NCBI GenBank assembly: GCA_030630935.1
Contig: DAOVMD010000259.1
Coordinates: 1-5,104 of the forward strand
DNA: 5,104 nt
DNA from: Candidatus Mcinerneyibacteriota bacterium
GTDB taxonomy: Bacteria > AUK180 > JAQVHJ01
Direction of reading: 5' to 3'
Below, in pieces: positions 2-4,682 of the stretch. Positions within the stretch are counted from its first letter, which is position 1. Each line of letters begins with the position of its first letter. Both the position numbers and the translations under genes were made by a program. The notes beneath the pieces were generated by a model that was not told the DNA's origin, searched no databases, and worked only from the letters and a program-made list of their open reading frames with translations.

Positions 2-412
2 ATCCCCAAGGTTGAACTTGAAAAAGTTACAGATGATGATATTATAAAACTTGAAGAAGAACTAATCGAGTTGAAAGTTGAATTTAAAGAAAAAGTTGTA
101 AATATCCTTAAGAATACTTCAACATGGTCAGGAAACCAAAGCATTGATGATGGCTTGAAAGGTCTAAATATTATTACTGATGATATTCTTGAGATGGTTC
201 AGGAAATTACTGAATTCTGCTTTAATGAAATTTCTCATGAATATATTTCAATGCTCTCAGAACGAAATATTGATGATAAAGACCTTAGTTACAGAATCCG
301 TCAATTCCCTCAGAAACAACCCCTGGATTACCAATTCTTCATGAAAGACTTGAGAAGCCATATCTTTGAAACATTTAAGATTTCACGAAAAGTATTTAAA
401 CTAAAAAAGTAA
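2..412 (+). CDS. Unrecognised protein, C-terminal fragment (starts outside window)
   Basis: The reading frame is open from base 2 to the TAA at 410-412, giving 136 residues whose N-terminus lies to the left of the window. An internal TTG at 71 is a poor start: it has no ribosome binding site and the frame is open well upstream of it. The visible part is acidic and probably helical at first (EKVTDDDIIKLEEELIELK), with a Trp-containing stretch (NTSTWSGNQSIDDGLKG), and turns basic at the end (FKISRKVFKLKK). I see no membrane segment, signal peptide, Cys pairs or catalytic motif, and I do not recognise the family. No terminator-like hairpin with a T-run follows; repeat DNA begins about 30 bases downstream. 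That it is coding is likely from the long open frame and ordinary composition. Its function is unknown. Confidence 0.7.
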   Translation: MPKVELEKVTDDDIIKLEEELIELKVEFKEKVVNILKNTSTWSGNQSIDDGLKGLNIITDDILEMVQEITEFCFNEISHEYISMLSERNIDDKDLSYRIRQFPQKQPLDYQFFMKDLRSHIFETFKISRKVFKLKK

Positions 413-444
413 AAAAGGTGATAGGAAAAGCTTCGCATTCTAAA

Positions 445-461
445 AGGGAGCTTGCTCTCCT
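445..461. repeat. Short GC-rich palindrome
   Basis: AGGGAGCTTGCTCTCCT folds into a stem (A445-T461, G446-C460, G447-C459, then GAG/CTC with T458 bulged) closed by a CTTG loop. It lies just outside the left arm of the 465/935 inverted repeat. No T-run follows on the plus strand, so it is not a standard intrinsic terminator for the left gene. Confidence 0.4.
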
Positions 462-464
462 ACA

Positions 465-501
465 CATTTGTGATTGATAGTTGATAATTATTAATTGATA
501 A
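465..501 (+). repeat. Left arm of a 37-nt inverted repeat
   Basis: Bases 465-501 match the reverse complement of 935-971 at 32 of 37 positions by hand alignment. The inner 21 bases (481-501, beginning TTGATAATTATTAATTGATA) are identical, and the outer 16 match at 11 positions. The outer part begins CATTTGTG here and CATTTATG on the opposite arm. The two arms enclose a gene-free interior, so the 507-base unit looks like a small element with terminal inverted repeats. No clear target-site duplication is visible. Confidence 0.6.
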
Positions 502-517
502 AACGATTTGCTTTAGA

Positions 518-571
518 TATTACAATGCACTTGTTTAGAGCTTTTGATAGGGGTGAAACCCCATTGTTATA
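518..571 (+). repeat. Hairpin element copy 1 (TTGA, hairpin, ATTGTTATA)
   Basis: TTGATA (544-549) is followed by the perfect hairpin GGGGTGAAACCCC (550-562) and then ATTGTTATA (563-571). A farther upstream arm, TATTACAATG (518-527), can pair with CATTGTTATA (562-571) at 9 of 10 positions, enclosing the inner hairpin. A second copy with a different inner stem lies at 603-652. Spacing of TTGATA to TATACA (568-573) is 18 bases, so a promoter reading is also possible. There is no gene directly downstream. Confidence 0.5.
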
Positions 572-602
572 CATAGTAATAGTATATGGAATTATATAAA
601 AG

Positions 603-652
603 TATTAACATCATCACGTTCCAGTTTGACCCTGCAAGCAGGGATTGTTATA
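603..652 (+). repeat. Hairpin element copy 2 (TTGA, hairpin, ATTGTTATA)
   Basis: TTGA (626-629) is followed directly by the perfect hairpin CCCTGCAAGCAGGG (630-643) and then ATTGTTATA (644-652), as in copy 1. The upstream flank TATTAACATCATCAC resembles the copy 1 flank TATTACAATGCAC in order and spacing. The inner stem bases differ completely from copy 1 while the pairing is kept. TTGACC (626-631) and TATATG (649-654) are 17 bases apart, which again resembles a promoter with a hairpin in its spacer. Confidence 0.5.
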
Positions 653-698
653 TGGTGACATGATTAGGTTTACAAATACATATTTTCAAAGCAGTGAT

Positions 699-757
699 TA
701 TTTTTTGTTTTTTTGTTTTTCTCTTTTTTATCGTACGGGTGTTTTTGTTTTTAAATA
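699..757 (+). repeat. T-rich low-complexity tract
   Basis: Mostly T with scattered G and C (for example TTTTTTGTTTTTTTG), interrupted at 731-740 by TCGTACGGGT and then resuming as GTTTTTGTTTTT. A similar T-rich tract followed by a GC-containing island lies at 4571-4613. No strong hairpin immediately precedes it, so it is not called a terminator. Confidence 0.5.
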
Positions 758-778
758 ATTTCACCGAGATGTGCACTT

Positions 779-839
779 CTAAAGCAACTCTGTTGCTTTA
801 GCAGAGAGTAGATAGCAGAGAACTGAGAACAGAAAATGA
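779..839 (+). repeat. Hairpin-capped GA-rich repeat, copy A
   Basis: It begins with a perfect 10-bp stem, CTAAAGCAAC (779-788) pairing with GTTGCTTTAG (792-801), closed by a TCT loop. A purine-rich tail follows, containing GCAGAGAGTAGATAGCAG and ending GAACAGAAAATG. A related unit with the same AGCAACTC head and AGCAGA junction lies at 2496-2545, and a GA-rich inverted copy at 2592-2637. Confidence 0.6.
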
Positions 840-934
840 TTTATCATCTTTTTTTAATTAAAAATAATTAAAAAGCTTTATATTAAGACATGTCGCCTTA
901 AACAAATGCATCATAATATGTAATGCAAGAACAA

Positions 935-971
935 TTATCAATTAATAATTATCAATCATAAACCATAAATG
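935..971 (-). repeat. Right arm of the 37-nt inverted repeat
   Basis: This is the reverse-complement partner of 465-501: the inner 21 bases (935-955) match exactly and the outer 16 (956-971) match at 11 positions. It lies just outside the compound hairpin at 978-1018, mirroring the GC-rich palindrome outside the left arm. Confidence 0.6.
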
Positions 972-977
972 CGCATC

Positions 978-1018
978 GCATCGCAGCGAAGCAAGATCTA
1001 GCTTGCGTCAAGCGATGC
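978..1018 (-). repeat. Compound hairpin touching the mscS stop codon
   Basis: GCATCGC (978-984) pairs with GCGATGC (1012-1018). Inside, GA (988-989) pairs with TC (1008-1009) across an A/G mismatch next to GCAAG (991-995) pairing with CTTGC (1002-1006), with loop ATCTAG. GCATCGC also occurs in an overlapping register at 973-979. The hairpin shares one base with the mscS stop (TAG, 1018-1020), so it would form at the 3' end of that transcript. On the minus strand it is followed by GATGCGCATTTATGG, with no real T-run. Termination or 3'-end protection is possible but unproven. Confidence 0.5.
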
Positions 1019-1881
1019 TATTTATTAATAATTACTCTTTGGGGTAATGGAATTTCAATTCCTGCCTTGTCAAATGCTTCTTTAATCTTTATCCTTGTTG
1101 CCCGGGCAATACCCCATTGTTCATTTGATTTTGTCTTAATTATCATCTTAAAACTTAAACTGGAATCATCAAAGCTATTAATACCTAAAACAGAAGGTTT
1201 CTCTAAAATTAAATCCTTGTATTTCTTATCTTTCATGAGATCATCAGCGATTGAATTAAGAATATTTGTAACTTTAGTGACATCAGAACCATAAGCAACA
1301 CCAACCTTTACAACTGCTTTAGACCAGAGGAAAGACATATTACTTACTGAGCGAATCTCACCATTTGGCACAAAATGAAATACTCCGCTGGCATCACGTA
1401 ATTTCGTAATTCTAAGATTAATTTCTTGAACCGTGCCTGTAATTCCGCATATTGTAACAACATCTCCAACCCTGAATTGATTCTCTAATAATATAAAAAA
1501 ACCGGTAAAGAAATCCTTAACAATACTTTGTGCTCCGAAACCAATAGCAAGACCAAGTATCCCGGCACCTGTTAATAATGGAGCAATATTCAAACCGATT
1601 TCTCGGAAAATCATTAATGCGCCAATCCCCCAAACAAATATTGAAACAGTATGACGCAAGACACTAATCAAAGTAATTGCCCGCTTTTCCCGCGCACTCT
1701 CATCTTCATCCCACTTGTCAACATGCTTAATTACTTTTTTTGATGCTATCTTTAAAATAATATTTACTACAAACATTGCTAAAAGAATTATCACTACATT
1801 GATTAAATGAGTTATTGTTTCCGGTTTTGAAAAGAACTCAACTATCTTTGTCGCAGCTCCGAAATAATTTGAATTAGTCAT
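1018..1881 (-). CDS. mscS: MscS-family mechanosensitive ion channel
   Basis: A 287-residue inner-membrane channel, close to the 286 residues of E. coli MscS. This family opens under membrane tension to release solutes during hypo-osmotic shock. Hydrophobic segments lie at about 22-46, 68-92 and 97-133. The last is the pore helix with the small-residue signature GAGILGLAIGFGAQSIVKDF (105-124), followed by ENQFRVGDVV (133-142) of the beta domain, PNG (172-174), and the C-terminal GIEIPLPQRV motif (274-283). It starts at ATG 1879-1881, which overlaps the end of the upstream lipoprotein gene by 8 bp. AAAGGAGA (1888-1895) sits 7 bases before the start when counted from AGGAG. It is the second gene of a leftward operon, and coupling to the lipoprotein gene is likely. 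Family assignment is secure; gating and ion preference cannot be read from sequence, and MscS paralogues are common. Confidence 0.95.
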   Translation of the reverse strand: MTNSNYFGAATKIVEFFSKPETITHLINVVIILLAMFVVNIILKIASKKVIKHVDKWDEDESAREKRAITLISVLRHTVSIFVWGIGALMIFREIGLNIAPLLTGAGILGLAIGFGAQSIVKDFFTGFFILLENQFRVGDVVTICGITGTVQEINLRITKLRDASGVFHFVPNGEIRSVSNMSFLWSKAVVKVGVAYGSDVTKVTNILNSIADDLMKDKKYKDLILEKPSVLGINSFDDSSLSFKMIIKTKSNEQWGIARATRIKIKEAFDKAGIEIPLPQRVIINK

Positions 1882-4613: not shown

Positions 4614-4618
4614 AAAAC

Positions 4619-4653
4619 GAGATTGCCGCGTCGCGTCGCTCCTCGCAATGACA
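4619..4653. repeat. Palindromic intergenic repeat (GAGATTGC...GCAATGACA type)
   Basis: The unit begins GAGATTGCCGCG and ends CTCGCAATGACA; ATTGC (4622-4626) and GCAAT (4645-4649) are inverted. I recognise this pattern, read on the other strand as TGTCATTGCGAGGAGCG, as one that recurs between genes in many unrelated bacteria. The GC-rich core stands out from its AT-rich surroundings. It creates a spurious reading frame containing LPRRVAPRNDI, which is often annotated by mistake. Confidence 0.75.
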
Positions 4654-4682
4654 TTCGGACGTTTTTATATTTAAATTAATAA

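Follow-up and report, generated by a model that had tools for sequence, protein, structure and literature searches.

Whole hairpin stems are replaced with pairing kept in a family of nested palindromic repeats from a Candidatus Mcinerneyibacteriota genome

Introduction

The small dispersed repeats (SDRs) of Nostoc punctiforme, described by Elhai and colleagues in 2008, are reportedly units of 21–27 nt that have little sequence similarity and a shared structure with compensatory changes, and they are said to be nested by insertion into themselves and into small transposons. PATE/IS200/IS605 non-autonomous derivatives carry subterminal hairpins on both sides and lack terminal inverted repeats.

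REP, BIME and REPIN sequences with RAYT (TnpA-REP) are short extragenic palindromes that occur in many copies, have near-perfect stems and a conserved unpaired foot, lie in mosaic or tandem arrangements and, across families, carry different stems behind one tag (PMC3116915, PMC3733652, PMC8266576). This tag is 5' and reads GTAG or CGTC; CGTC REPs are also found without a dedicated RAYT (PMC3733652). SDRs are mentioned in PMC3116915 as well. Palindromic repeats can be insertion targets of other mobile DNA, as with the insertion sequences that target REPs, where a full IS is inserted (PMC1525189). At the level of general features, the mobile GC clusters of yeast mitochondria, which belong to a eukaryotic organelle, are described as short hairpins, rich in GC, that show signs of having spread through AT-rich intergenic DNA (PMC4478555).

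Here, we describe a non-coding repeat of about 95–140 nt that is present in about 70 copies between the genes of a Candidatus Mcinerneyibacteriota bacterium, and in which one hairpin keeps its pairing while its whole stem is replaced.

Results

The window analyzed here is the whole stretch of 5,104 nt at positions 1 to 5,104 of contig DAOVMD010000259.1 (C207), from a fragmented metagenome-assembled genome of 3.16 Mb in 471 contigs that is 80% complete (GCA_030630935.1). Statistics are based on about 490 kb of loci, which partly overlap and are enriched for the repeat. The gap between the ORF and the MscS-like gene (Table 1) is made up largely of dispersed repeats, and its terminator-like GC hairpins with a T-rich tail number three, against 0.2 in shuffled sequence. 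The window also holds an inverted repeat (465–537/899–971). A further dispersed repeat, AAGCAACTCTGTTGCTTTAGCAGAGA.., lies at 777–832 and 2497–2540, in two intergenic gaps, and recurs at several other loci. On the minus strand at 4618–4654, TGTCATTGCGAGGAGCGACGCGACGCGGCAATCTC resembles the REPs of CGTC type that PMC3733652 describes, and a sequence similar to it is found in relative G001 (L232, ~1173–1222).

Table 1. Coordinates of the repeat features and of the intergenic gap that contains them.
Feature	Position	Strand	Remarks
Intergenic gap, 605 nt	413..1017	.	Between ORF 2–412 (+) and MscS-like gene 1018–1881 (-)
Host repeat Z, conserved ATTACAATGCNTTTGTTTAGAGC; element interrupts it after TTTTGATA	484..549	+	Also at 899–971 on the minus strand
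One element copy, Y form, hairpin 1 to tail	550..691	+	DNA matches 544–691; covariance model 550–671
Hairpin 1, GGGGT GAA ACCCC, 5' end of element	550..562	+	GGGGTNAAACCCCANTGYT matched 68 times in the genome
3' foot of hairpin 1, ATTGTTATAC	563..572	+	Family consensus ATTGYTATGC
H2 5' arm (TCACGTTC) and loop (CAGTTTG), c-type stem	614..628	+	Uninterrupted TCACGTTCCAGTTTGGAACGTGA in most related copies
Hairpin 2, CCCTG CAAG CAGGG, module lodged in top of H2	630..643	+	At other sites also lodged in the top of H2 with a-, b- or c-type stem
3' foot of hairpin 2, ATTGTTATA	644..652	+
H2 3' arm remnant (GTGA) and conserved right flank CATGATT	655..665	+
Tail AGGTTTACAAATA..TTCAAAG, exchangeable right-end module	666..691	+	Common to other Y copies

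An earlier sequence-only reading had seen, at 518–652, two adjacent copies of one hairpin element with conserved flanks and different stems. Both inner stems indeed pair perfectly (550–562 and 630–643) and ATTGTTATA follows each of them (563–571 and 644–652); the outer stem that had been assigned to the first copy is likewise present (518–527 with 562–571, 9 of 10 pairs). The folding energy of the two stretches is unexceptional when compared with shuffled sequence (z = -1.2 and 0.0). The division into two copies does not hold. Positions 518–549 are a separate repeat that is found elsewhere without hairpin 1, and positions 603–628 fall in the middle of the element whose 5' end is hairpin 1. Two side-by-side paralogous copies are ruled out, as the two 5' halves come from different repeats, and for the same reason the resemblance between the 5' flanks is a coincidence. 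Of the supposed conserved flanks, the 3' foot is real; neither the matching 5' flanks nor the TTGA box is seen again in the family.

Both hairpins lie within one copy of the dispersed repeat. DNA matches show that 544–691 recurs across the genome, and a covariance model built from 25 copies of the element gave 68 genome matches at E < 0.001, including the 25 training copies; the match at 550–671 is among them (E = 1.8e-8), and its E-value is 3e-11 when the window is searched by itself. The pattern of hairpin 1 likewise has 68 genome matches at up to two mismatches, against none for the reversed control. The element lies between genes: of 76 copies, three overlap with an ORF of at least 90 aa. 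Copies have one of two main bodies, X (~90–100 nt) and Y (~95–140 nt, with a tail). Several Y copies carry a 3' hairpin, GGGAGCTTGCTCCC, that the copy in the window lacks, and X copies end differently. Ends of the family include GGGGTGAAACCCC and GGGAGCTTGCTCCC, and several Y copies are bounded on both sides by a hairpin, with terminal inverted repeats not evident. The element is modular and consists of hairpin 1 and the foot that follows it, a weak hairpin in the middle of one of the forms, a hairpin with the loop CAGTTTG (H2), and the tail. The host repeat Z has 78 genome matches at up to three mismatches, and some of its copies are without the element.

We found the clearest stem replacement at H2. 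Most Y copies have the perfect hairpin TCACGTTC-CAGTTTG-GAACGTGA at the site where hairpin 2 stands in the window. Three unrelated H2 stem types (a, b and c) occupy this one position around the fixed loop CAGTTTG, and almost every perfect CA-NNN-TG hairpin of the DNA examined has this 7-mer as its loop. In an alignment of 25 sequences, 94.8% of H2 cells pair and 8 of the 10 pairs are altered on both sides. Sliding the partners by 1–3 columns lowered pairing over the whole structure from 82.9% to 31–57%, and none of 500 shuffles reached the covariation score. The pairing of H2 has thus been kept while whole stems were replaced. The suggestion of a site family that swaps stems and keeps their pairing is therefore supported, more strongly than the sequence alone could show and mainly at H2, which is another hairpin of the element than the two first noticed and is interrupted in the window.

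The arms of H2 are not mixed: the 38 uninterrupted copies comprise 15 a/a, 12 b/b and 11 c/c pairs. Between a- and b-type copies, both with an X body, flank identity is 0.81 on the left and 0.76 on the right, nearly the same as within a type (0.81 and 0.79), whereas H2 arm identity is 0.38 between these types and 0.92 within them. For example, the left flanks of L074 (a) and of L030 or L079 (b) are 97% identical and their stems are unrelated. On the tree of the flanks, six changes of stem type are needed (5–7 in bootstraps), of which the strongly supported branches alone force one. As no arms are mixed and flanks are equally alike between a and b types, H2 stems are exchanged as whole units.

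Nesting extends to smaller units. A module of 23–25 nt, CCCTGCAAGCAGGG followed by WTTGTTATA, sits in the top of H2 in the window and at about 10 other places, where it replaces a few H2 bases; it is found at the same point (CAG^) in a-type and b-type H2 (CACCAGTC.. and GTCAAGGT..) and near it in c-type H2. Four unrelated GC stems precede the foot WTTGYT(T)ATR, namely hairpin 1, hairpin 2, GGGGCATCGAGCCCC and GGGTCTTAGAGACCC. The repeat-enriched loci contain 159 sites with the foot TTGYT(T)AT[GA]; a GC hairpin precedes 47 of them, against none for the reversed and the complemented foot; the permuted-foot control gave four hairpin sites, all of them hairpin 1 itself. Hairpin-plus-foot units with different stems stand in tandem in L004 and L023, and in such units (L004, L023, L118) the first ends in the ATG where the second begins. 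An integron attC site was considered for the GTTATGC/GTTATAT feet and rejected on inspection: the AAC/GTT core words do not match RYYYAAC/GTTRRRY and the surroundings are not complementary. We also noted a second insert, GAAATCAGAAAGGGTGCTTGCACCC, a further nested module that replaces part of the b-type H2 5' arm (L062, L122, L005, L222 and L224). Separately, H2 is chimeric in L024 and C352:146–211, where the arms around a CCAGCAAGCAGGG module are of c type on the 5' side and of a type on the 3' side, possibly as a product of recombination.

The element had no match in the 40 relatives searched (one from its own family, five from its class and 34 at greater distance) and no copy in the collections of plasmid, phage or viral contigs. 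A phage or plasmid origin was rejected because those collections gave no matches. The family is a real and genome-specific one of nested palindromic repeats. Relative G001 has the orthologous gap between the ORF and the MscS gene (L232, ~459–1500) without the element and with unrelated content, and in several hosts, paralogous copies of the host repeat occur with and without X or Y, one host having both orientations. These filled and empty paralogues, together with the orthologous gap that lacks the repeat, suggest that the element probably transposed in the past; neither a target-site duplication nor a precise excision footprint was found among the copies. When hosts were folded as DNA, insertion was into a loop in a- and b-type H2, in one copy of host V and in two weak Z/W hosts; it was not in the other six hosts. 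As this fits only 5 of 11 folded hosts, we do not claim insertion into loops as a rule.

Three Y1 (IS200/RAYT-type) genes are present in the genome (C247, C338 and C343), and in this 80% complete assembly none of them is flanked by the hairpins or the foot of the element. The C247 gene (L048, ~540–710 and 1050–1200) has on its flanks an array in which hairpins GCTCYGTANGRGC repeat with a fixed 25-nt period, a fixed foot GATATCTTTGTA and varying stems; it has the design of the element's hairpins in other letters, an analogous arrangement in the same genome. The RAYT-like gene of C338 is bounded by its own repeats, AGAGGAGGGACGG.. and the inverted ..TGCAACAAAATGCAACCCCCGT (L049, 1357–1386 and 2347–2390), and C343 has no such flanking repeats. 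Copies of TGCAACAAAATGCAACCCCCGT were observed near several copies of the element (L004, L023, L036 and L215). A search of the incomplete assembly for an IS200/IS605-type parent found no TnpA-encoding element with the element's ends.

Discussion

With about 22 nt, an extragenic position and 68 matches, hairpin 1 and its foot fall within what is called a REP, a palindrome of 20–50 nt in high copy number, and the element has the near-perfect stems, the conserved unpaired foot, the mosaic or tandem arrangement and the different stems behind one tag. It differs from REPs in that its foot is 3' and reads WTTGYT(T)ATR, and in that its units sit within larger multi-hairpin elements. Immediately 5' of hairpin 1, the tetranucleotide is GATG in 20, TAAG in 10, TATG in 9 and GAAG in 8 of 63 copies, with others in the remainder, and in no copy is it GTAG or CGTC. 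We looked for both this tag and a cognate RAYT and found neither in the 80% complete assembly, and have therefore not filed the element as a REP. The two-hairpin ends of several Y copies may be likened to those of the PATE/IS200/IS605 derivatives, whereas the copy in the window lacks the 3' hairpin and X copies end differently. The use of palindromic repeats as insertion targets is like that of REPs by insertion sequences (PMC1525189), except that here a non-coding hairpin repeat or a 23–25 nt module is inserted rather than a full IS, and GC-rich hairpins that show signs of spread in AT-rich intergenic DNA are, in general features, what the element has in common with the yeast GC clusters (PMC4478555).

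By its design, the element is closest to the SDRs of Nostoc. Units of 21–27 nt, a common structure, compensatory changes and nested insertions, as reported for the SDRs, are all seen in it; whole-stem exchange around a fixed loop within a larger element sets it apart.

We favor, at somewhat better than even confidence, the explanation that these are non-autonomous nested palindromic mobile repeats of the REP or small-dispersed-repeat kind, moved as folded single strands. Elements and modules would move, or would have done so until recently, as non-autonomous mobile DNA recognized as folded hairpins. They would be identified by the loop together with the foot WTTGYT(T)ATR, and the stem would be mainly structural, so that one stem could stand in for another unrelated to it. 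A single-strand transposase of the HUH/Y1 (IS200/RAYT-like) class, acting in trans, is the enzyme we would name first, though we hold this least certain step to be somewhat less than an even bet; as the assembly is incomplete, the link is drawn by analogy and is the weakest one. The cognate gene may be missing from the fragmented, 80% complete assembly, or may not exist. That the hairpins are a substrate for single-strand recombination, which the sequence-only reading had raised, or for transposition is conceivable, with no enzyme linked to the element.

Stems could instead have been changed by hairpin-templated mutation (template switching or quasi-palindrome correction) together with gene conversion, with neither hairpin transposition nor selection on pairing. 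Compensatory pairs inside stem types, such as CACATTC/GAATGTG versus CACGTTC/GAACGTG, and the L024 chimera, with its c-type 5' arm and a-type 3' arm around a module, speak for it. However, unrelated whole stems, 38% alike, stand in register between almost identical flanks, and correction within one hairpin is unable to generate both arms of a new stem; conversion from another copy could do so. We regard this account as unlikely.

A family of structured RNAs or cis-regulatory or terminator elements, whose stems would be kept by selection on RNA pairing in transcripts, is improbable in our view. The covariation of H2 agrees with it, the RNA of intact copies folds more stably than shuffles (z = -2.8 and -3.4), and two hairpins score as terminator-like. 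Nevertheless, the stems have no T run after them, no Rfam match to the element exceeded the gathering score, the element is absent from the 40 relatives searched, and nested insertions would break an RNA. The upstream gene is on the same strand in 31 cases and on the opposite strand in 20 (p = 0.16) and arrangements of the genes on both sides are mixed, so that a terminator is not favored by gene orientation around the copies. A structured promoter with the hairpin as spacer, proposed from TTGA and TATA-like words 17–18 nt apart at both hairpins of the window, has next to no chance, since only 15 of 63 copies of hairpin 1 have TTGA in the 6 nt upstream, one has TATA in the foot after it and one has both, so that the boxes are not part of the motif, a consensus promoter scan listed neither box pair, and a sigma-70 promoter as a family property is refuted by -35 and -10 boxes that are not conserved across copies.

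As a class, the family is an ordinary one, and what is unusual is how clean the stem exchange is. Whole-stem exchange with near-identical flanks and a constant loop in one genome is not known to us from earlier work. One rather improbable cause would be a genome-wide hairpin cassette system, in which an enzyme that recognizes only the foot, the loop and the flanks of folded single strands replaces the whole stem-loop with another; unrelated stems would then pass between copies of a dispersed element, always at the same positions.

Compensatory change is usually taken as slow selection on structure. At H2, both arms were replaced together, in register, and the flanks were almost unchanged, which indicates that covariation can also arise from the exchange of whole hairpins. 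If the mobilizing enzyme were found, it would provide a case of foot and loop being recognized whatever the stem, and would help to account for the growth of mosaic intergenic repeats through nesting.
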